Source of the DNA: a virus
Length of the DNA: 63,207 bases
Reading direction: 5' to 3' (one strand)
IMG/VR virus record: IMGVR_UViG_3300042691_036187
Coordinates: 1 to 63,207 of that record
The translations under genes were made by a program, and so were the position numbers. Shown here one piece after another: positions 1,875 to 63,207 of this stretch; the stretch's first letter is position 1, and every line of letters begins with the position of its first letter. A model generated the notes under the pieces. The model was not told the DNA's origin, did not search any database, and saw only the letters and a program-made list of their open reading frames with translations.

Positions 1875-1951
1875 TTGAAACCCCCTGATTTGTTGTTGTT
1901 AGGCACTCGTTTCGGATCGCACTCGCTTACTTATCTCAAACCTTACACCTA

Positions 1952-2038
1952 TCACTTAGCTTCGGACCGTCCAGCATAGCCGAGGAGAAGGTTGCAGACT
2001 ACCATCGTGCAGATAACCAGGATAATCTCGGTGATCAT
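1952..2038 (-). CDS. small single-span membrane protein, 28 residues
   Basis: ATG at 2038 is preceded by GAGGGAG with six bases between. The short product has an acidic N-terminus (MITE), an uninterrupted hydrophobic stretch of about 18 residues rich in Ile, Leu and Val with two Cys, and a charged tail (GRSEAK). This suggests a one-pass membrane micropeptide. A motif copy (2053-2061) lies immediately upstream and another is embedded in the 3' end of the frame. Short length limits certainty. Confidence 0.45.
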   Translation of the reverse strand: MITEIILVICTMVVCNLLLGYAGRSEAK

Positions 2039-2331
2039 TGCTTACTCCCTCGTGGTTTCGGTGGTTGGGCAACCGTATCTCGTAGGTAGGGTCTAGTAGG
2101 ATCGGTGCCCAGAGGATACCCGCTAGCCTCAGCTTACAGGGAACCCCTAGTTTCGGAGGGCTCCCACGCTGCGCAAACAATCTATAATAGTGGAACATCC
2201 CAGACACACGCCGCCCCACATCGGTTCACGGTTTACAAACTGTGGACACCACGCACAACACACGTGCTATAAAAGGGCCCCCGGGCTATACCCACCCGCT
2301 GGCCTTTCCCATATAGGCAAGGGATCCCTTA
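2039..2331 (-). other. non-coding, structure-rich spacer
   Basis: No convincing gene. It holds two motif copies (2053-2061 and 2148-2156), a CCCT/AGGG stem around the second, a GCAC/GTGC inverted repeat near 2258-2272 and a GGGCCC-rich stretch near 2276-2286. It looks like a regulatory or transcript-end region rather than coding DNA. A plus-strand frame at 2190-2381 has no ribosome site and a biased composition. Confidence 0.4.
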
Positions 2332-4620: not shown

Positions 4621-5439
4621 ATGACAGAGAAGATGTCAAAACCAAACCACGTGTTCACGCCGGGACCGACGTCTACTCCGCCTTTCTTTCCGCCGACGCT
4701 CCCAGATCCCTCTATGTACAAGCAAAACTTCGACCAGCTTTTAGTGGCTCGAGGTATTCGCTTCAGACATTACAAGAGCTTACCGTGCCCGAACATCAAA
4801 GTTCTAGACAACAACTCGCATGATCCTACATGCGAGCAGTGTGACGGCTCTGGGATCATTTATTACGAACCCAAAGAAATCACCGGGATCATGACCTCAA
4901 ACTCTGTAGAAAAGCAGTTTGAATACCAGGGCGCTTGGGAAATTGGAAGCGCGATGGTGACGATGCCATCTGAGTATAGTGATGGCGAGCAGGCAGACTT
5001 CACACTCTATGATAAGCTAGAGGTGTTGGACTATACTGTTAGGCTCTGGGAGCTTAAGGAATATGAACCTAGACCTGACAACCTTCAACAGCTCAGATAC
5101 CCTATCGAAAAGGTTGGGTATTTGATTACTGCAACAGACAGCGAAGTTATAGAGTTCGTGCAGGGGGTTGATTTTTCAGTGGAAGACGGACAGATCAAAT
5201 GGGTCACTGGAAAAACCCCCAACTACGACAACATCAGCGATATGGGGCAGACATACTCAGTTTCCTACTGGGCACATCCAGTTTACATCGTCCTCCAGCC
5301 GATGCGGGAGCTGCGCGTTACCCAACAAATGATGCCAGATGGTACAAAGATGTCAGTGCGGCTTCCGCAGCAACTAATTATAAAGAGAGACTTTTTGGTT
5401 AATAAGCCAGAGAAACTTGCAGCAGGTATCGGTAGTTAA
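4621..5439 (+). CDS. putative head-tail connector / virion structural protein
   Basis: A 272-residue protein with a Pro-rich N-terminus (residues 10-32), a Cys motif near 55-76 (PCPN...CEQCDGSG) that may bind zinc or form a tight turn, then a long beta-rich region. It is the first gene of the plus-strand late block, after a TATAAT box and a GGAG site. Position ahead of neck-like genes and the sheath suggests a connector or head-completion protein. No sequence family is firmly recognised; the structural role is inferred from synteny. Confidence 0.55.
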   Translation: MTEKMSKPNHVFTPGPTSTPPFFPPTLPDPSMYKQNFDQLLVARGIRFRHYKSLPCPNIKVLDNNSHDPTCEQCDGSGIIYYEPKEITGIMTSNSVEKQFEYQGAWEIGSAMVTMPSEYSDGEQADFTLYDKLEVLDYTVRLWELKEYEPRPDNLQQLRYPIEKVGYLITATDSEVIEFVQGVDFSVEDGQIKWVTGKTPNYDNISDMGQTYSVSYWAHPVYIVLQPMRELRVTQQMMPDGTKMSVRLPQQLIIKRDFLVNKPEKLAAGIGS

Positions 5440-5453
5440 GTTTTAGTCTGTTA

Positions 5454-5459
5454 TATAAT
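5454..5459 (+). promoter_or_regulatory. TATAAT box before the free-standing HNH gene
   Basis: TATAAT 21 bases before the ATG at 5481 in a 41-base gap. A private promoter fits the HNH gene being a mobile insertion in the late operon. Confidence 0.5.
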
Positions 5460-5480
5460 GACCCTAAGAGGTTGTGGTTT

Positions 5481-6104
5481 ATGCCAGTGTTCATTTATAA
5501 GAAAAATATAAAATGCTATAAATGTTCATGTGCAACATGTGGCGCCGATAGAGGGTTTCAACCAATTAGAAATATCGATGCTAAATGTGTAAACTGCAGC
5601 AATAAGAGTCGTAAAACTAAAAGCGAAGCCTTTAAGGCTAAAATGTCCCTCATTATGAAGGGCAACAAAAACGGATCAAAGCCTGAATCTAAGAAATTAA
5701 ACCAAGAACAGCTGAAGTTAAGAAAATCAAATTACAACAAAAAAGCATCAATACGAACAAGAGACAGATACTACAAAGATATCGAATTTAGGTTAAGATG
5801 CGTACTTCGCGCTAGATTAAATGTCGCAATACGAAACAATGCTAAAACTGGTTCTGCGGTAAAACAACTTGGGTGCTCAATAACTAAGTTTAAAGAATAC
5901 ATGGAATCTAAATTTCAACCAGGAATGGAGTGGGATAATTGGTCGACCAAAGGTTGGCATATCGATCACATCGTTCCCTTGTCTTCGTTTAATTTAAGCG
6001 ATCCTGAGCAACTAGCTAAAGCTTGTCATTACGCCAATCTGCAGCCCCTATGGGCAAAAGAAAATATTAGTAAAGGAGGCGCTAATGCCAGCATGGGCCT
6101 CTAA
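5481..6104 (+). CDS. HNH homing endonuclease
   Basis: The ATG at 5481 (AAGAGG nine bases upstream) is preferred over the TTG at 5472. The 207-residue basic protein has an N-terminal Cys cluster (CYKCSCATCG, CVNC) that looks like a zinc ribbon, a Lys/Arg/Asn-rich DNA-binding middle, and a C-terminal HNH core: GWHIDHIVPLSSF and NLQPLWAKENISKG. This is a common phage mobile-nuclease subtype. It lies between structural genes, overlaps the next gene by 20 bases and has its own TATAAT box, as expected for an intron-free homing insertion. Confidence 0.85.
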   Translation: MPVFIYKKNIKCYKCSCATCGADRGFQPIRNIDAKCVNCSNKSRKTKSEAFKAKMSLIMKGNKNGSKPESKKLNQEQLKLRKSNYNKKASIRTRDRYYKDIEFRLRCVLRARLNVAIRNNAKTGSAVKQLGCSITKFKEYMESKFQPGMEWDNWSTKGWHIDHIVPLSSFNLSDPEQLAKACHYANLQPLWAKENISKGGANASMGL

Positions 6105-43359: not shown

Positions 43360-43671
43360 TCATGCCTTTTCTAATAGATGTTGGGGAATCTTAATGGATC
43401 TGCGTATGTATGTTTTACCGTCGTTAGATTTGCAGACTATCTCAACCTGATAGTAAAGAGTTCCCTTTTCCCAGCCAACAATCTCAAGTACCTTACCGTT
43501 TTTTAGACAGCTATTCTCATAAAATGAGAATTTTTCATCAAACAATACATTGACCTTTTCGTTCTGTTTAAATCTTACTTCATCGTCTAGGAACAAATCC
43601 TCAACACACTGATGCTTTACAATAGTAACACATCCAGATAAAAGTGCTACCAAAATAAAAAAGTATTTCAT
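43360..43671 (-). CDS. lipoprotein, 103 residues
   Basis: MKYFFILVALLSGC is a short signal peptide with a clear lipobox (LSGC, Cys 14). The mature part is beta-rich with Cys at about 22, 55 and 80 and a positively charged C-terminus. It overlaps the helicase gene stop by one base (ATG A). Two adjacent lipoprotein genes in a replication operon are notable. Role unknown. Confidence 0.7.
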   Translation of the reverse strand: MKYFFILVALLSGCVTIVKHQCVEDLFLDDEVRFKQNEKVNVLFDEKFSFYENSCLKNGKVLEIVGWEKGTLYYQVEIVCKSNDGKTYIRRSIKIPQHLLEKA

Positions 43672-44726
43672 TACTCTTCTTCCTTGTCCATCTTTGATGT
43701 TAGATCGTTCAGTGCGTCTATTTGTGCCTGGTCTTTTATCTCTTGAAGCTCACCCTTTGAGACGTACGTGAATTTACCGTTTTCGTATTTGCAAGAAATT
43801 GAAACCTCGGCCTTTGAGAATCGTCCTTTTGCAATATAAAATGTAGAAACCGGAATACCCTTAATCTTGATTATCTCGATTGCGGCAGCAGCCGCCTCGT
43901 AAAAACCACGACTCCACTTAATACGACTTTCAAAGTTTCTTTCAGTCTCGTCTGATGAGAGTGGGACTAGTTGGGTCATGACGATCACCGGAACCTTTGC
44001 GTGCTGTGCATAATCGGTTGCGATGTCCTTAAACCTATAAAGAGCATCAACACGCTCAATGCTCGGCACGACAGTAGACTTATTGATACGTTGAAGGAAG
44101 TCGACTATTACACAACTATACGCGCCAGAAGCATTAACCTCTTGCAAGATCGATTCGATCTTTTCGAGAGTAGTAGATGCAATCGGGTCGTCCATGACGG
44201 TTACGTATGGCTCAATCTCAAGAATCTTGTGAGCAACCTGCTTTCTAAAAGAAGTGGGGAGTTTATCCTGAACATATAGATTAAAATCAAGTCCAAGTTC
44301 GATACAAGCAATCCTTGCCAAGATCTTAGCTTCTGTCTCCTCGTTTGAGATGATGAAAGTCTTAAGCCCCTGCATATAGAGTCCATGCGCTGTTGCTGCC
44401 GTAAACGTAGACTTACCAGTACCAGATGCAGCACCCACAAGATAGATACCACCGGGACACAACGGGCAAACCGTTGATAACGCGCCATTGACAAACATTA
44501 CTGCCTTGCGGATTAGATCCGCATCTCGCTCAAGAACACCAACTAAACGCTTCGCATTGTCTTTGCCCTTACGTGCCTCAATCTCGGCAAGAGAGTAGTT
44601 CTCTAATCTTTCTTGAAGAACTTTTTTTTGATTTAGTTTGGCCAAACCTTCTTGAACGCGTGCCTTTTCAAGTTCTTGCTTGGCTTCGAAAAGATCAACT
44701 CTTGAATTTATCTTTAGCTCATTCAT
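43671..44726 (-). CDS. DnaB-type replicative helicase
   Basis: 351 residues from ATG 44726 (GGAG upstream; overlaps the initiator gene stop by eight bases). Residues 1-85 are a charged helical linker, then the RecA-like core: Walker A GAASGTGKST at 98-107, EET near 128, Walker B CVIVDFLQRI, the MTQL sensor segment and an Arg-containing GRFSKAE near the C-terminus. The family unwinds DNA at the fork as a hexamer. The DnaB N-terminal domain is absent, as in some phage helicases. The operon context supports a replication role. Confidence 0.85.
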   Translation of the reverse strand: MNELKINSRVDLFEAKQELEKARVQEGLAKLNQKKVLQERLENYSLAEIEARKGKDNAKRLVGVLERDADLIRKAVMFVNGALSTVCPLCPGGIYLVGAASGTGKSTFTAATAHGLYMQGLKTFIISNEETEAKILARIACIELGLDFNLYVQDKLPTSFRKQVAHKILEIEPYVTVMDDPIASTTLEKIESILQEVNASGAYSCVIVDFLQRINKSTVVPSIERVDALYRFKDIATDYAQHAKVPVIVMTQLVPLSSDETERNFESRIKWSRGFYEAAAAAIEIIKIKGIPVSTFYIAKGRFSKAEVSISCKYENGKFTYVSKGELQEIKDQAQIDALNDLTSKMDKEEE

Positions 44727-45609
44727 CTTCGAAGCTCCCAGATAATGCAGGCCTACTTCTGATTTCATCGTACTCTCTCATCATCTGCTGAATAACGTCG
44801 TCATTGGTGGTCATCGCAATTGCTGCATCTATCGATATTTGTCCGTCTTGGCGCTTTATCTTTACCCCAGATATCTCTTTAAGCTCAGGCACCACAAGAG
44901 TAATCTTGGAGTTAAATGTGGCGCCAACAGCCTTATCCCACCAAGCTGCATGCTTGTCAGGGTATTTAGAGCGTGCCCAGCGCGCCATTATCTTCTTCTT
45001 AAGCGAAGACGAGATATCTGATTCACCATAGCCGCAGGATTTAAGTGATTCTAGTAGGACTAGAAGTTCCTCGTAGCAAGCTTTAAAATCTGGTTGTTCA
45101 GGAATTTCCGATAGCCACTTCCGATAAATATCTTCCTGCGAAACTTTCTCTTCTCTCTTCTCTTTATTCTTATTAGAGGTGTCTTTTTCAGCCCTGTTGT
45201 CGGCTGGCTTTTCAGCCCTGTACTGGGCTGATTTTTCAGCCCACTGAAAATCATTAGACTTTTTGACATCTTCATCTAAGATCTTAATAATACCGCTATC
45301 TTGTACGTAGTAGTAGTTTTTAGAAGGAAGACCCTTCTTGATGATCCTAACGAAGCCAACAGATTCTAGTTGCTTAGTTAGTTTCTGTCTCGCTTCCTTT
45401 GTAAGGTTTAGATCTTCTTCGATGGACTCAGAAAGAGCAAAAAAACCGCCCTCAGCATCTAGTTCATTTCGTGCTTGAAAATAATCTCTGCGCGAGATGA
45501 GATCTGCTAAAAGCAGAGCAGCATCATTGTTTTGAAGATACCGTGCTATCTTCTTATTTACCATCCAAAAAGCACCTTGACTTACGGTGCTCGTCAACAG
45601 ACCCTTCAT
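44719..45609 (-). CDS. replication initiator / helicase loader (lambda O-like organisation)
   Basis: 296 residues. The N-terminal 110 form a winged-helix type region (NKKIARYLQNNDAALLLADL, LTKEARQKLTKQLESVGFVRI, KNYYYVQD). A low-complexity linker (AEKSAQYRAEKPADNRAEK, then Lys/Glu-rich) is encoded by DNA repeats. The C-terminal region is helical with RWARSKYPDKHAAWW. Lambda O has the same plan: DNA-binding N-terminus, a linker encoded by the origin iterons, and a C-terminal region that contacts helicase-loading proteins. It lies between primase and helicase genes, overlapping both. Functional call is from architecture and context. Confidence 0.6.
   Translation of the reverse strand: MKGLLTSTVSQGAFWMVNKKIARYLQNNDAALLLADLISRRDYFQARNELDAEGGFFALSESIEEDLNLTKEARQKLTKQLESVGFVRIIKKGLPSKNYYYVQDSGIIKILDEDVKKSNDFQWAEKSAQYRAEKPADNRAEKDTSNKNKEKREEKVSQEDIYRKWLSEIPEQPDFKACYEELLVLLESLKSCGYGESDISSSLKKKIMARWARSKYPDKHAAWWDKAVGATFNSKITLVVPELKEISGVKIKRQDGQISIDAAIAMTTNDDVIQQMMREYDEIRSRPALSGSFEDE
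45144..45254 (-). other. candidate replication origin: iterons plus pyrimidine tract inside the initiator gene
   Basis: Two 18-base inverted repeats at 45189-45206 (CAGCCC, spacer, GGCTG) and 45213-45230 (CAGCCCTGTACTGGGCTG, perfect), with a third copy of the TTTTCAGCCC half at 45233-45242 whose own flanks pair (TTTTCAG with CTGAAAA). Starts are spaced exactly 24 bases. Beside them, 45144-45174 is an almost pure pyrimidine, AT-rich tract on the plus strand. Lambda ori has 18-19 base dyad iterons and an adjacent asymmetric AT-rich tract inside gene O. Confidence 0.6.
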
Positions 45610-46478
45610 GCTTTCCTCAAGCGTGAGGCGAAGTACGAAGCCAAATCCATATCTGGCTTTCGTAAGACGTCATTCCAGTCCCTGCCATCTTCTTCGACAA
45701 ATGCGTAATGCGTACATGCACCCTCATTTGCCATTCGCTCGAACATTTTTATTCCAGCTTCATCGTTATCAGGCGCAGCTATTACTTTTAGACCAGAATC
45801 AATGAGCTCTTTGAGCTTCTCGGCGTGGTACTTCGTTATGCTTGCACCAGACGTAGACATGCAGCGATATGGATTTTTTAATAAGTTACCAAACTTTTTG
45901 TTTAGAGCCTGTTGAAGGCTAGCGGCGTTTATTGCTCCCTCAGCAACTACAATATACTTCACATTCGTGGAGAAAGGCTGTTGAGACCAACCCCAGAATA
46001 AGTAACCTAAACGAGTCCCGGGCATTGTCGTGATTTTCCACGCCCCTCCGTTCTCATCAATCTTTGGCACAATGAATCTTATTTGTGCACCTACGAAAGT
46101 ATTGTTTAAATAGTAGGGAAATACTATGCCTTCGCGAGAAGAATCGTAATACATTTCACCTGGTGATTGTAATCCTCTAGATTCTAGATAGTCTAGACCG
46201 GGTCGCGAGATTGGATCTGATAATGGGTGAAAAGATCTTGGCCAAGACATTGCATTAACTTCTAACGGTCGCGCTTCCTCAAAGGAGAGATTTGAGCTTA
46301 GAAAGTCTTTTAAAGAAATGCCAGCTAGAAAACAATATTCGTATAGTGAATACGCTCGCTTGCATTTACCTTGACACCAAGCCCAAACCTCATTAGTTTC
46401 TGGATCTTTGTGCCAATAAAGACATTCGTTCTTTTTTCCACCCTTACAGATCAGGCATTTTTTGCTATTAAAATCCAT
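45606..46478 (-). CDS. DnaG-type primase with TOPRIM domain
   Basis: 290 residues. The N-terminus has a zinc-finger set of Cys (CLIC, EC, WCQGKC; residues 8-40). The TOPRIM core shows VVAEGAINAASL (Glu, about residue 180) and APDNDEAGIKMFERM (acidic DxD, about 238), which bind metal for RNA primer synthesis. The usual large helical C-terminal domain is missing, as in short phage primases. GAGGAC precedes the ATG; both ends overlap neighbours by a few bases. Confidence 0.85.
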   Translation of the reverse strand: MDFNSKKCLICKGGKKNECLYWHKDPETNEVWAWCQGKCKRAYSLYEYCFLAGISLKDFLSSNLSFEEARPLEVNAMSWPRSFHPLSDPISRPGLDYLESRGLQSPGEMYYDSSREGIVFPYYLNNTFVGAQIRFIVPKIDENGGAWKITTMPGTRLGYLFWGWSQQPFSTNVKYIVVAEGAINAASLQQALNKKFGNLLKNPYRCMSTSGASITKYHAEKLKELIDSGLKVIAAPDNDEAGIKMFERMANEGACTHYAFVEEDGRDWNDVLRKPDMDLASYFASRLRKA

Positions 46479-49640: not shown

Positions 49641-51350
49641 ATGCTTTACGTAAAGTCAAAATCTAAAGATATGGTCGACGATCCCGTACAGATTGACGAT
49701 ATCGTTAAAACCACATTAAGTCGCATGGCAAATATCGCATCAAAAACACTTGGACCTGGTGGTAGGCCTGTTCTTATTGAGCGAGAAGGACTGCCTCCTC
49801 TAGTAACCAAAGATGGTATCACGGTAATCAAATCCTTGGGTATGCCTAATGCAGCGGCAAATACAGTTCTGGACACTTGCAAGGAGATATCGCTTAACAC
49901 CGCACGGGACGCAGGTGACGGTACGACTACTGCGATCGTTTTGGCGGATGCGATTGTTAGAGCGGGATCGGTTTTCATGATGCGTAATAAGCGCTATAAT
50001 CCTCAGCGCTTTGTGAACGAGCTTCGTCAGTGTTACGAAAAGGTAGTCAAACCCTACCTAAAAGACGTTGCTATTCAGGTTAAGTCAGACGATGACCTTA
50101 AACGCGTTGCTCTAATCTCCGCGAACGGAGATCAAGACGTCGCAGAGGTTGTGGTAAAGGCCTTTATGGCCGCAGGTGAAGACGGACACATCTTGATTCA
50201 AGAAGATCAAGGCGGCGGAATGCGTGTTGAAACCGTAGATGGTTTCATTGTAACTTCTGGTCTAAAGGATCTGGGATCAATTGGGTCTGTATTTATCAAT
50301 GATCGCGCCAATCAGCAAGTCCGCATGGACGAGGGACTAGTAGTTCTTTTTGATGGAACGCTTAACGATCTTGTTCTTCCTGCCGCAATTCAGTCTGCTT
50401 GCGAAGCCGATGCTGATCTCTTTGGCAAGCCGATCATCATCATGGCTCATGGTTTTGCAGATCCAGTTATTGAGAAATGTCTAAAAACCTCTAAGAGCGG
50501 TGTTACTGTACTTCCGGTAAAAGTACCCAAATCGACGTTGGCAAACTCTAGGACGATGTTTCTTCAGGACATGGCCGCATACACATCCGCGTCAGTTATC
50601 GATCCTGCTACTGCCGCTTCTTTTAGTGCTGAACATTTTGGTCGCTTCAGTGCAGTAAAGGTGAATACCTACGAAACTTTTGTTCAATGCGAATCTGACG
50701 GTGAACTGATTGATGAGCGCGTTTCTGAGCTTAAAGCAATTATGTCCGCCGCTCACTCGGAGCATGATCGAGCACATCTGAGGGCAGCAATCGCAAAGCT
50801 TACTGGTGGAATTTCTACAGTATGGGTCGGTGGCATGACCGACGCTGAGGTTAGGGAACGCAGAGATAGAGTTCAAGATGCAGTAGAGGCCGTCAGATCT
50901 GCAGTTGCAGAGGGTATTGTCGCCGGTGGGTGTGCGACGCATTTAGCGCTTGCAAAAAGAATCAGAGATTCAGATTCCTACTATTCATCGCCCGCATGGT
51001 CTATTTTGGCAGAAGCCCTTGAGCACCCATTTAAGGTGCTTTTAGCAAACTGCGGCGAATTTGATCGTCATGCAGAGCTTTATTCTGCAATCATTGAAAG
51101 CTCTCACAACCACATTCCTAGAGTTGTGTTTGACGCAAATCAGCATGAAGTCGTGGATCCTTTTAAGTCCGGCATCGTCGAGCCTGCAAAAGTTCATCGG
51201 GTTGCAATTGGAAATGCTTTATCGGTCGCATCGCTTATGGTTACACTCGGTGGCATTGTTGTCGCACCTCGCGATTACAATTTAGAAACGCAAATGGAAT
51301 TGAGTAAAGCTGCTCTAAAAGACATGATGAATGAGGCTGGACAAGAATGA
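49641..51350 (+). CDS. GroEL-like chaperonin
   Basis: 569 residues (GroEL has 548). Conserved ATP-binding parts are present: LGPGGRPVLI, VTKDGITVIKSL and DAGDGTTTA with the catalytic Asp. Near residue 390 come GGMTDAEVRERRDRVQDAVEAVRSAV, broken here as GGMTDAEVRERRDR and VQDAVEAVRSAV, and GIVAGGC, matching the Asp398 region of GroEL. The apical domain is diverged and the C-terminal GGM tail is absent. Phages such as EL encode chaperonins that fold virion proteins. No GroES is found in the window, so it may work alone, with host GroES or with a cochaperonin elsewhere. The next gene overlaps its stop. Confidence 0.88.
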   Translation: MLYVKSKSKDMVDDPVQIDDIVKTTLSRMANIASKTLGPGGRPVLIEREGLPPLVTKDGITVIKSLGMPNAAANTVLDTCKEISLNTARDAGDGTTTAIVLADAIVRAGSVFMMRNKRYNPQRFVNELRQCYEKVVKPYLKDVAIQVKSDDDLKRVALISANGDQDVAEVVVKAFMAAGEDGHILIQEDQGGGMRVETVDGFIVTSGLKDLGSIGSVFINDRANQQVRMDEGLVVLFDGTLNDLVLPAAIQSACEADADLFGKPIIIMAHGFADPVIEKCLKTSKSGVTVLPVKVPKSTLANSRTMFLQDMAAYTSASVIDPATAASFSAEHFGRFSAVKVNTYETFVQCESDGELIDERVSELKAIMSAAHSEHDRAHLRAAIAKLTGGISTVWVGGMTDAEVRERRDRVQDAVEAVRSAVAEGIVAGGCATHLALAKRIRDSDSYYSSPAWSILAEALEHPFKVLLANCGEFDRHAELYSAIIESSHNHIPRVVFDANQHEVVDPFKSGIVEPAKVHRVAIGNALSVASLMVTLGGIVVAPRDYNLETQMELSKAALKDMMNEAGQE

Positions 51351-58413: not shown

Positions 58414-61400
58414 ATGAAGGCTTATCTATATTTAGACGTTGAAACAACCGGATTGAGTTCGTCTATAAACGACATCGTGCAATTAGCATGTGTTCCGGTT
58501 ATAGATGGCAAATGCGGTGTTCCGTTTAATGAGTTCTGCCAGCCAGCAAACTGGAACACTATTGATGCCAAATCTATAGAGGTTCACGGCATCACTGTTG
58601 AAATGATGAAAGGTTTTCAATCGCCCTCTGCGATGTTGGATAAATTTGTTGCATATCTGTCTCAGTTCAACACAAAATTTGTTATTGCTGGATACAATTC
58701 AAATTTTGATAAAGCCTTCTTGGGGGCAATTTTTGCCAAAAACGGAAGATCAAACGAGTATTCGAGGTTCTTTCTAAATGAAATACGCGATGTTCATGCT
58801 AGAGCTAAAGCAGTTAAAGATAAGCTAACATCAACTAAATTAAAGCTAGTAAATCTTGCCGAAGAGTTTGGCATACAAATCAAGGCCCACGATGCATTAA
58901 GCGATATTCAAGCCACCATTGAAGTAGATAAGAATTTATCTGCAATAATCGGCGAAGACTTTGAAGAGATATCTATCAAAGATGACAAGTTATCTCTTTC
59001 GCTTCCTGAGCTTCCTCAGTTGCATCTTCATTCAGAGTACAGCAACACAGATTCTGTATCTTCTATTGAAGAATGGGTTTATTGGGCTGCATCTAAGGGG
59101 GTTAAGGCTATCTCTTTTCCAGACCACAATTGGGCTGCATCTCTTTATAAATCAATCAATGTCAAATCTGTTATAGAAAAAGTAAACAAAACGTATAAAT
59201 TATCTCTAACAGATCAAGATATATCGATAGTTCCCGCTATCAGTATCAATGTCATAGATACTGAAAATGGACTAAATAAACCATTTAAAATCAACGCATG
59301 GGCAGTATCTAGTGTTGGTTATAGAAATCTTTTAAAGCTTGCATCCATGGGATGGGACTGTGGCGTAGAGGATTCTGGCATCCCTATTGCTATAATTAAA
59401 ATAGAAGATGTTCTTGCCCATCAGGAAGGAGTCGTCTTTGGCACAGGATGCGAAAATGGGTTGGTTGGCTCTATTGTCTTGGGCGAAGACGACGAGAAGA
59501 TTAAAGCTTCAAAGCTCGATAAGGTTGTCCGACAATTTGATCGAGTCGTATTGGAATTACTGCCTTTCGACGTCATTAAGTACTTCGACAAAGGCCTCGG
59601 CTTTAGGAACTTTTCAAAGACACCGTCTATCCCAGACGGAAACTTAACAAAAGCCATTAATAATCTTATCAAGAATTCGATAGACAATTATGGCTATAGA
59701 TTCATAATCTCAACTGCTGCTCATTTTATAAATGAAGAAGATAAGATATTTCAAGACGTAGTATCTAAGTCCTCATTTAAAGATAAGCGCTTTTTTTATG
59801 ATACGCGCTACCAGAGATCGCTTGATGAATGCGTTGCTATACTGCGGCGCCATCTTGGGGATTGGCTTACTTTAGAGCAGATAGATCTCGCCAGGGTTGC
59901 AGCTGAAGATATTGCCTCAGCAGCGCAACAAATAAGCATTAAACATGAGTACCATTTACCACGTATTTCTATACCAGATCACATATCCCAAAAGACACAA
60001 GAATACGATAAGCAGCTTTATCTTCTCTTAATGGCAAAGATAAAAGAACATGGTCGCTGGTCGAATGATCCAGAGTATGTTCAGCGCTTTAAAAAAGAAT
60101 TAGACGTAATTTGGAAGAATTCCAAGCTTAATTTTATCCCATACTTTCTAATGTATGAGGATATTTGCTCCTACGCTAGGTCGCAAGGTATTTTGCAAAA
60201 TCTAGCTCGTGGCTCTGCGGGCGGATGCTTAATATCTTACTATCTCAAGATAATCCACATCGACCCCATCAAAGAGCATCTGCCCTTCGAAAGGTTCTTG
60301 TCGCATGCTCGTATTAATGCTGGCAGCTTTCCAGATATAGATCTAGATCTTGGCCAGCGTGGACCGGTGCTAAAGTATTTGGCCGAAAAATATAAAGCTG
60401 GTTTTGCTCAAATAGGTACATTTCAACGATTTAAAACTAAAAATGCTATTAAAGATGCCATGTTTGCTGTCTTCGGTAGAAACAGAGCAGACAAAGAAAT
60501 TATGGATGTCTGCGACACTATTCCAGATTCACCTCAAGGTTTGGATGAAGATAAGTTTCTTTATGGATATACTGATTCTGAGGGCATTGTTCACAAAGGT
60601 CACCTAGAGCAAAACGAAACTCTCCAGATATTTTTTAGACAATACCCCGAGATTGAGCAGGTAACTAAGAAGTTAATTGGTTTACCGAAGGGTATGGGTC
60701 GCCACGCATCTGCGTTTGTGATATCTACGTTAGATTTATCATCAGAGCGCGTTCCAACAGTGCTGTTCGACGACCCGGACATCGGAAGAGTTGCTGTAAC
60801 TCAATTTGAAGCACCAATGGTAGAGAAGTCAGGCCTTGTTAAGGCTGACGTCCTTGGTCTTACAACGGTCAAAACACTCGAGAGCGTCGTTTCCTTAATT
60901 AAGAATAATGCTGGTGTTGATTTGTTAGAAGAAGATGATAAAGGAGTCCAACTCCTATACCGTCTCCCCGAAGATAACAAAGTCTACGAGGACTTCTATA
61001 AGCGTAAGACTGATTCAGCTTTTCAGTTCAACACGGATCTTATTAAAGGATATATTCAAAAGTTTGCTCCGATAAGAAGACAAGATTTGTCTGACCTCAC
61101 GGCACTATGTCGACCTGGTGCGCTGGATGTGGAATTTATTCCAGGTGTTTCGGCTACTCAGTTCTATATTGATGTTAGAAACATGGTTAGAGATCCAGAG
61201 TACATCCACGAAGATCTTGCTGAGGTGTTATCTGAAACAAACGGCGTGGTTGTCTATCAAGAACAACTCATGTCAATCTTGGTTAAGTTTTGCGGATACT
61301 CTCTTGAGGAATCAGATCAGATTCGTTCAGCTATCGCCAAGAAAAAACGAGACGTTATGTTGAAGACGTTTGATAGGATCAGGTCTGAGACTATGAAAAG

Positions 61401-62460
61401 AGGCTGGACCTTAGATCAGGCAAATAAACTGTGCGATGTCGTCACCGCATACTCAAATTATTCATTTAACCGCTCTCACTCAAGGGCGTATGCAGAGCTG
61501 GGATACATTACTATGTATTTAAAACACCACTACCCGTTAGAGTGGTGGGCGGCAGAGCTCAATAATTCAGACGAAAACAAGATACGACATTATGTCACGA
61601 TCCTGGGTGACAAGATCACGCCTCCTTCGCTTCACGTGCCAGATGATAGGTTTACTATTGTGGGCGATAGGATCGCAGCACCTCTTTCTGCTGTAAAGGG
61701 TCTAGGGCCGTCTAGTATTAAGGCAATTATTAATCGTGGGCCATATTCTTCTGTCGAGGGCTTCATTAGTAAAATGTCGTCCGGCGTTAATTCTTCACAT
61801 TTTTGGGCCTTACTTAGAGCCGGTGTATTCGATGAGATGGCGCCAACTAACATCTCTATACCGGAAGCTCGTAAGCAATTTGTAACATTATTTAAGTCAA
61901 CCAAAAAAATAAAGAATGTACCAGAGGAAGTCCTAGATACCTCGCCCCTCAGCATATTCCTTAATCAAAGAGATATTTATAAGTGCTTTAATAAGGCGCT
62001 TTTAGCCGATCCACTTATTCGCAACGAGATATCTGCGATGTGGCCTTCTATGCGTGAAACTAAAAGAAAGGATATACCATTAGCGTTTGGTACTTCGCCA
62101 ACTATCCCGGTCATATCGTCGGTTGCTGTTGCTGCAAAACTAATAGACGCTCAAGAAAGATCTGAGTCCACAGATAAGATTAAGGTTGCTATGGTGGGGT
62201 TGTTTCAATCGTCTACCTACAGAAGCGGCACCTCAAAACGAGGCAAACCATGGTCAAAGGTTGATGTCGTTGTATCAGACGGTCTATCTACTATAGAGTG
62301 TACTTTCTGGGATCAAAAACATGCTCTTAGATTTCCTACAAACACGCTTGTATATGTGATGGGTTATGTAAAAAGAGGGTGGAAGGGATCCCCCTCCCTT
62401 GAGGTGTTAGAACTTGAACGCTTAGATCGCTTTGATAATTCAAAGCGCAAACTATCTTAA
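58414..62460 (+). CDS. dnaE: DNA polymerase III alpha subunit (C family) with N-terminal proofreading exonuclease
   Basis: 1348 residues. Residues 1-190 are a DnaQ-type 3'-5' exonuclease: LDVETTGL (Asp 8, Glu 10), IAGYNSNFDKAF and HDALSDI, so all catalytic residues are present. A PHP domain follows from about 203 (LHLHSEYSNTDS, SFPDHN). The C-family catalytic core has GSAGG near 603 and FPDIDLDLG near 639-646, with the third Asp in VKADVLGL. VSATQFYIDVR and SRAYAELGYITMYLKHHYP belong to the fingers. An OB fold (IKVAMVGLF) begins near 1256. This is the replicative polymerase; most phages use A or B family enzymes, and PolC places its exonuclease inside PHP instead. Confidence 0.92.
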   Translation: MKAYLYLDVETTGLSSSINDIVQLACVPVIDGKCGVPFNEFCQPANWNTIDAKSIEVHGITVEMMKGFQSPSAMLDKFVAYLSQFNTKFVIAGYNSNFDKAFLGAIFAKNGRSNEYSRFFLNEIRDVHARAKAVKDKLTSTKLKLVNLAEEFGIQIKAHDALSDIQATIEVDKNLSAIIGEDFEEISIKDDKLSLSLPELPQLHLHSEYSNTDSVSSIEEWVYWAASKGVKAISFPDHNWAASLYKSINVKSVIEKVNKTYKLSLTDQDISIVPAISINVIDTENGLNKPFKINAWAVSSVGYRNLLKLASMGWDCGVEDSGIPIAIIKIEDVLAHQEGVVFGTGCENGLVGSIVLGEDDEKIKASKLDKVVRQFDRVVLELLPFDVIKYFDKGLGFRNFSKTPSIPDGNLTKAINNLIKNSIDNYGYRFIISTAAHFINEEDKIFQDVVSKSSFKDKRFFYDTRYQRSLDECVAILRRHLGDWLTLEQIDLARVAAEDIASAAQQISIKHEYHLPRISIPDHISQKTQEYDKQLYLLLMAKIKEHGRWSNDPEYVQRFKKELDVIWKNSKLNFIPYFLMYEDICSYARSQGILQNLARGSAGGCLISYYLKIIHIDPIKEHLPFERFLSHARINAGSFPDIDLDLGQRGPVLKYLAEKYKAGFAQIGTFQRFKTKNAIKDAMFAVFGRNRADKEIMDVCDTIPDSPQGLDEDKFLYGYTDSEGIVHKGHLEQNETLQIFFRQYPEIEQVTKKLIGLPKGMGRHASAFVISTLDLSSERVPTVLFDDPDIGRVAVTQFEAPMVEKSGLVKADVLGLTTVKTLESVVSLIKNNAGVDLLEEDDKGVQLLYRLPEDNKVYEDFYKRKTDSAFQFNTDLIKGYIQKFAPIRRQDLSDLTALCRPGALDVEFIPGVSATQFYIDVRNMVRDPEYIHEDLAEVLSETNGVVVYQEQLMSILVKFCGYSLEESDQIRSAIAKKKRDVMLKTFDRIRSETMKRGWTLDQANKLCDVVTAYSNYSFNRSHSRAYAELGYITMYLKHHYPLEWWAAELNNSDENKIRHYVTILGDKITPPSLHVPDDRFTIVGDRIAAPLSAVKGLGPSSIKAIINRGPYSSVEGFISKMSSGVNSSHFWALLRAGVFDEMAPTNISIPEARKQFVTLFKSTKKIKNVPEEVLDTSPLSIFLNQRDIYKCFNKALLADPLIRNEISAMWPSMRETKRKDIPLAFGTSPTIPVISSVAVAAKLIDAQERSESTDKIKVAMVGLFQSSTYRSGTSKRGKPWSKVDVVVSDGLSTIECTFWDQKHALRFPTNTLVYVMGYVKRGWKGSPSLEVLELERLDRFDNSKRKLS

Positions 62461-62494: not shown

Positions 62495-63207
62495 ATGGAC
62501 AGCGTATATGTTTTCACGCAGAATCCACCAGAAAATCTCTCTGAAAAAGAGATGGTTTTGTCTAAACCAACTTTTCTTGAAGAAATTAAGGCTTGTTCGC
62601 GTAGAAAAGGTTTTTCTGCAACTCTAGGGCCAAACTATCTAAGAGCTATTGCAGAAGAAATCGGTCGTCGGTATGACAAATATTTTAACGCGTACAGGCA
62701 CGTAGTGCCCCAAGATTTTATGGGACGTGTTGCAGAAACAGATGAGCAAGTTGCAGAAGTGATACACGAGATGTTTCAAGCGCGATACCCCGCCATCTAT
62801 CAAAGATATTATGAATCCGTCTTAAGATCTAGACCATTTACAACTAAAGTGATCTATTTCACAGGATCTGCAGACGATGTGACGGTTTTTAAACGTCTCG
62901 GTATCGATCAAATTAACGAAAATCAAATTTTAGATCATCTTGGTATTAATAAGTCATTAAAAAAACAAACTCAAAAACTAGAAAAACAACAAAAAGAATC
63001 GTCGGTGTCTGAAGTTAAAAAACAAGAAATGGAAAATTCTTCTAAAGAGCTGGAACTTTTAGCATCTCTAGATAATTCTAATCTCCCTCTCATTAAAGAG
63101 CCCCATGCAAAAGAAGTTGTTTTGCAAAATAAAAAGCCGCAGCAAGTAAGTCCGCAGCAAGTAAGTCCGCAGCAAGTAAGTCCGCAGCAAGTAGGTCCGC
63201 AGCAAGT
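62495..63207 (+). CDS. hypothetical protein with pentapeptide repeats, truncated by the window
   Basis: AAGGAG precedes ATG 62495; the frame is open to the right end (at least 237 residues). Residues 1-140 form a mixed helical domain (MDSVYVFTQNPPEN..., YYESVLRSRPFTTKVIYFTG). This is followed by a Lys/Gln/Glu-rich linker (about 150-200) and, from about 215, in-frame PQQVS repeats (at least four full). The beginning of the window's end suggests a longer repeat tract outside. No family recognised. TATAAA at 62462-62467 may be its promoter. Confidence 0.75.
   Translation, partial: MDSVYVFTQNPPENLSEKEMVLSKPTFLEEIKACSRRKGFSATLGPNYLRAIAEEIGRRYDKYFNAYRHVVPQDFMGRVAETDEQVAEVIHEMFQARYPAIYQRYYESVLRSRPFTTKVIYFTGSADDVTVFKRLGIDQINENQILDHLGINKSLKKQTQKLEKQQKESSVSEVKKQEMENSSKELELLASLDNSNLPLIKEPHAKEVVLQNKKPQQVSPQQVSPQQVSPQQVGPQQ
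63137..63207 (+). repeat. tandem 15-base repeats encoding PQQVS
   Basis: CCGCAGCAAGTAAGT at 63137, 63152 and 63167, a one-base variant at 63182 and a partial copy at 63197 that continues off the end. Copies are nearly identical, so expansion is recent or copy number varies. Confidence 0.9.

Follow-up and report, generated by a model that had tools for sequence, protein, structure and literature searches.

A candidate replication origin within the initiator gene of an uncultivated myovirus

A short repeat lies inside the replication initiator gene of an uncultivated phage, which raises the question of whether the gene carries the origin at which its own product would act. The gene encodes 296 amino acids and occupies positions 44719-45609 on the minus strand of IMG/VR virus record IMGVR_UViG_3300042691_036187, a linear stretch of 63,207 bases that was analyzed whole and is here called the window. 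A first-pass annotation had proposed a lambda-like origin inside this gene. The gene set of the window, with a tail sheath, a baseplate wedge, and a virion protein, is that of a contractile-tail phage. The source is an uncultivated tailed phage; it belongs to a group of myoviruses, likewise uncultivated, that encode their own replisome. All sequences compared are metagenomic, and the related contigs are longer than the window.

The initiator gene is the middle member of a minus-strand block of three mutually overlapping genes, primase, initiator, and helicase, whose order is maintained in the relatives. The Toprim primase (45606-46478, minus strand; Toprim_2, E 3e-10; phrog_47) overlaps the start of the initiator gene by 4 bp. 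The DnaB-like helicase (43671-44768, minus strand; DnaB_C, E 8e-13; phrog_19), which has the C-terminal (RecA-type) domain only, overlaps its end by 50 bp. Overlap on both sides had been claimed and is confirmed by these coordinates. The helicase is 365 amino acids long, its core starts near residue 105, and the usual N-terminal domain is apparently missing; no tblastn relative of it was found among 50,697 phage records. The polymerase (58414-62460) belongs to the C family, as had been called. A DnaQ-like exonuclease domain is fused to it N-terminally, ahead of the PHP domain, and its nearest phage relatives are only ~26% identical, with the match starting near residue 199, past the exonuclease. 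The phage also carries a GroEL-like chaperonin gene (49641-51350; Cpn60_TCP1, E 2.6e-45). At the record end (63137-63207), the 15-bp unit CCGCAGCAAGTAAGT is repeated in tandem, in 4.7 copies, up to the last base.

The initiator was recognized from its open reading frame, its AlphaFold2 domains, the match of its N-terminal domain (NTD) to RepA_N initiators in the PDB, and PHROGs replication initiation families, where the O-like match is weak (E 0.0034). The AlphaFold2 model, built on six sequences and of low overall confidence (pLDDT 64, pTM 0.38), predicts a fairly confident winged helix at about residues 13-116, a disordered linker at 114-154, and a helical C-terminal domain at 158-232. The predicted linker coincides with the iteron-coding stretch, which agrees with the earlier claim that the repeat encodes the linker of a winged-helix initiator. 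In a Foldseek search of the PDB with the NTD, the top eight matches are RepA_N initiators (4pql, 5kbj, 4pt7, 4pta; probability 1.00, E 2.8e-3 and up). In a PDB profile search, the top 4 of 177,635 sequences are RepA_N initiators as well (E 0.006-0.03). Each match is marginal (E 0.003-0.06), and the separate routes agree. The full-length profile match to RepA_N stops at the end of the NTD, and the C-terminal domain is not alignable. The Pfam RepA_N model PF06970 matched nothing in five contigs even at E values up to 10, and hmmscan gave no match either. By predicted fold, the NTD is RepA_N-like; because PF06970 finds no match, it is classed as a distant relative and not as a member. The nearest annotated relatives by BLAST are Flavobacterium phage initiators, in which no clear in-gene iterons were found. 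An alignment-driven search of viral and bacterial genome collections for further initiator relatives returned no new ones.

The repeat is tandem, has a period of 24 bp, and spans 45185-45242, with copies at 45185-45208 and 45209-45232 and a partial third from 45233. It had been read as two 18-base dyads and a partial third copy. The period stands, and so do the GTAC-centered dyads, CAGCCCTGTTGTCGGCTG (45189-45206) and CAGCCCTGTACTGGGCTG (45213-45230); the first pairs at only 5/9 positions, counted by eye, and the second at 8/9. Their center is what was probably wrong. The candidate binding unit is probably the A-tract-centered GGGCTGA-AAAA-TCAGCCC, which lies half a period away and is present in three copies on the minus strand. 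Iteron 1, GGGCTGAAAAATCAGCCC (45225-45242), is a perfect dyad with a central AAAA; it is followed by iteron 2, GGGCTGAAAAGCCAGCCG (45201-45218), and by iteron 3, GGGCTGAAAAAGACACCT (45177-45194), whose right arm is degenerate. This register is preferred because all three copies then have both arms and because it agrees with the iterons of RepA_N and lambda. The GTAC-centered register, which gives two dyads and leaves unpaired half-sites at either end of the array, was set aside.

The exact core GGGCTGAAAA is found three times in the window, each time within the element in the initiator gene, and nowhere else in the six contigs examined. When synonymous codons were resampled under the same peptide, three copies of the core arose in 12/100,000 trials and two equally good dyads in 0.4%. 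The repeat thus exceeds chance given the peptide. With the three copies stacked across four lineages, GGGCTGAAAA, which comprises the left arm and the A-tract, deviates at each position in no more than one of 12 copies. A CC pair further on is also constant, and the right arms are only loosely conserved. A pattern search for pairs of GGGCTGAAAA returned mostly unrelated coding repeats.

Ten related IMG/VR contigs and the window make up the four lineages. By initiator identity, these are the window with L001 (95%), L002-L004 (66-70%), L005 (46%), and L006-L010 (46%), where the truncated L010 has 66% over the N-terminal half. Codons 116-150 of the initiator gene (45160-45264, minus strand) contain the left flank, the three iterons, and the start of the A-rich tract. 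Among the four lineages, 147 of 149 pairwise comparisons of codons for the same residue are identical in this stretch; elsewhere in primase-initiator-helicase the share is 38-53% (Fisher p 2e-7 to 1e-10 per pair). Silent-site conservation peaks at z 10.4 in the top 20-codon window, compared with z 4.6 for the highest window outside the element. The latter is a weaker second peak at 45409-45495 (codons 39-67), in the part coding for the winged helix (69% versus about 42%). Any two lineages differ in the element by 7-13 amino-acid-changing codons and by 0-1 silent ones, so the linker peptides differ between lineages over DNA that is nearly frozen. This pattern is the opposite of ordinary coding constraint and argues for selection on DNA or RNA. 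The first-pass annotation had named dyads that vary over a conserved linker peptide as evidence against its proposal; what was found is a variable peptide with fixed silent positions. The comparison of relatives establishes the linker-coding stretch as a cis element, with the constraint apparently acting on DNA.

Both sides of the iterons are AT-rich. On the C-terminal side is a candidate unwinding region (45143-45176, minus strand), rich in A and purines on the coding strand and in pyrimidines on the plus strand. A 31-base pyrimidine tract had been noted beside the repeats; at 45144-45174, 29 of 31 bases are pyrimidines, and it is the sole 31-mer in the whole window in which 28 or more bases belong to one class. 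The AATAAGAATAAAGAG of this tract is invariant in all lineages. Its duplex stability is low and not extreme, with 2% of 30-bp windows weaker. On the other side, the conserved left flank AAAAAGTCTAATGATTTTCAGT (45243-45264, minus strand) has two variable positions only in the four lineages, and the weakest duplex of the initiator gene starts around 45253-45262.

The proposed origin-type element with lambda-like anatomy, in which the iterons of the linker-coding stretch precede a strand-asymmetric A-rich tract toward the C-terminal side, is strongly supported. The iteron element is conserved, unique in the window, and placed between overlapping primase and helicase genes. By analogy with known systems, the linker-coding part is probably the replication origin of the phage or one of several, where the initiator would bind the three iterons, the tract would open, and helicase and primase would be recruited. 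Initiator iterons often serve also as control sites, and the same element could be an operator through which the initiator represses or stalls transcription of its own gene and the downstream helicase, with replication starting elsewhere. The element indeed lies ahead of the helicase gene in a shared operon, and the record may be incomplete. However, the coding strand beside the iterons has no promoter-like site beyond chance, the A-rich tract is conserved along with the iterons and is unneeded for an operator, and in-gene iterons are origins in both experimentally known comparison systems, pSK41 and lambda. An operator acting in place of an origin is therefore considered unlikely.

The conserved stretch could also act as RNA, in the form of a hairpin GGGCUGA-AAAA-UCAGCCC that controls translation of the initiator or the helicase. 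The window RNA does fold better than shuffles (z -3.8), but the five-sequence alignment contains 0 compensatory changes, has 9/25 pairs disrupted in one or more sequences, and scores unfavorably for covariation. The direct repeat GGCTGAAA is conserved and the pairing is not, which makes a hairpin quite improbable. An overlapping gene in the +1 frame, imposing conservation on silent sites, is slightly less probable still. In every relative, that frame reads through the element without a stop, over 61-82 codons where no contig end cuts it, and has an ATG just before the element. It is open because the repeat is stop-free and its period is a multiple of 3; its stop positions and C-terminal parts vary by lineage, conservation ends inside the frame, and changes in the element are mostly nonsynonymous in the +1 frame (5-10 versus 1-3). 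Recent spread of a short DNA block by recombination, in which silent sites appear conserved without constraint, is the least probable explanation, since a young block would agree with the element identity of 82-91% against 48-77% in the flanks but would lack both types of change, whereas amino acid changes are plentiful and silent ones nearly absent in all pairs of the four lineages.

For the in-gene origin, a mechanism is proposed by analogy with pSK41 and lambda. Dimers of the RepA_N-like winged-helix domain would bind the three direct 18-bp iterons, GGGCTGA-AAAA-NNNGCC[C], 24 bp apart. The complex would strain and open the A-rich tract at 45143-45176 on the C-terminal side. The C-terminal domain of the initiator would then recruit the DnaB-like helicase and the primase of the phage, the products of the overlapping neighbor genes, and elongation would be carried out by the phage C-family polymerase. 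Neither raw GC skew nor coding-corrected skew, taken by strand at four-fold sites, switches at the element in the window or in the longer related contigs. A second origin may exist elsewhere in the phage genome, because the 63-kb window is linear and shorter than its relatives.

Similar repeats are found in other viral genes. The wHTH-like genes of contigs L038, L067, and L071 have in-gene GGNTGAAAATCANCC repeats after a winged-helix-like domain. Like the window iterons, these are A-centered dyads of nearly the same letters, but they are 15 bp long and variably spaced. BLAST shows no similarity between L038 and the initiator of the window. The L038 locus with GGNTGAAAATCANCC-type repeats, at 5001-5859 (reverse strand numbering), lies beside DnaC-like (loader), DnaB-like, and primase genes. 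Together with one in L092, these genes, several with winged-helix-like N-termini, hold candidate in-gene origins. Other viral wHTH-like genes carry perfect A-centered GGCTGAAAATCAGCC or GGGTGAAAATCACCC repeats. A broader search for A-centered dyads picked up, in many cases, the 3' ends of genes from a single unrelated family (GTGAAAATTCATCC...), and also a few wHTH-like genes. In an unrelated viral contig, L025, a large protein gene contains seven GGCTRAAAA-type repeats, most then followed by TCAGCC (1877-2163, reverse strand numbering).

In-gene origins with A-centered iterons are already known from RepA_N plasmids, including staphylococcal ones, and from lambdoid phages. What is new is an in-gene candidate origin, with an iteron sequence of its own, in an uncultivated myovirus group that encodes a C-family polymerase, and the comparative evidence for it is unusually clean. 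This group, with its own replisome, now has a sharply delimited candidate origin. Silent-site conservation in the linker of an initiator can thus reveal candidate phage origins using metagenome data only.

The RepA_N design is known mostly from plasmids and phages of Firmicutes. The best studied of these initiators is that of pSK41, whose NTD binds four rep boxes located centrally in the gene that encodes it and whose C-terminal domain contacts primase (PMC5703833). Read directly, the pSK41 iterons are GTGTC-AAAAG-GACAC at a spacing of 23 bp. RepA_N iterons have been described as direct repeats with arms meeting at a poly-A tract, and in the Vibrio PLE the RepA_N origin is in a non-coding region, which counts against the in-gene analogy (PMC7145576). 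The phage element resembles the RepA_N plasmids (pSK41, pSK1, pTZ2162, and relatives) in the winged-helix fold of the NTD and in iterons that encode the linker, have inverted arms meeting at AAAA, and adjoin an AT-rich stretch. It has three iterons at 24 bp where pSK41 has four at 23 bp. It differs in its iteron letters, in an initiator too distant for the Pfam RepA_N model and with an unalignable C-terminal domain, and in its setting, a phage that itself encodes primase, helicase, and polymerase.

The iterons bound by lambda O lie midway along gene O, next to an AT-rich tract that opens (PMC7466680). The lambda iterons, read directly, are ATCCCTC-AAAAC-GAGGGA at 20-24 bp spacing. Lambda ori and the lambdoid O genes share with the phage element the 18-bp dyad iterons, each with AAAA at its center, in the stretch coding for the linker (PMC7466680). 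They also share an A-rich, strand-asymmetric tract on the C-terminal side of the iterons, here at 45143-45176. The label "lambda-like" therefore holds for the layout and not for the protein. By hhalign, the NTD aligns with eight RepA_N N-termini at 90.9% (E 1.2e-6, 27% identity, 96 columns) and with seven lambda-type O proteins at 0.2%. Three iterons are present in place of the four of lambda, no P-type loader gene follows the initiator, the adjoining downstream gene being that of the DnaB-like helicase, and a C-family polymerase is phage-encoded.

Most other RepA_N and O genes examined likewise have A-centered in-gene iterons and then an AT-rich tract, and the RepA_N and O N-terminal profiles align at 59.8% probability. 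The layout shared by RepA_N, lambda O, and the phage initiator suggests a common design. It is possible, if somewhat doubtful, that the lambda-type, RepA_N-type, and phage in-gene origins are branches of one ancient replicon design, in which a winged-helix initiator has a linker that encodes its own A-tract-centered iterons and unwinding tract, as a cassette moving between plasmids, lambdoid phages, and large myoviruses. The candidate origin of the phage is tied to the RepA_N design, and the arm-AAAA-arm layout common to RepA_N and lambda O genes makes one ancestral initiator-plus-origin cassette a concrete hypothesis.
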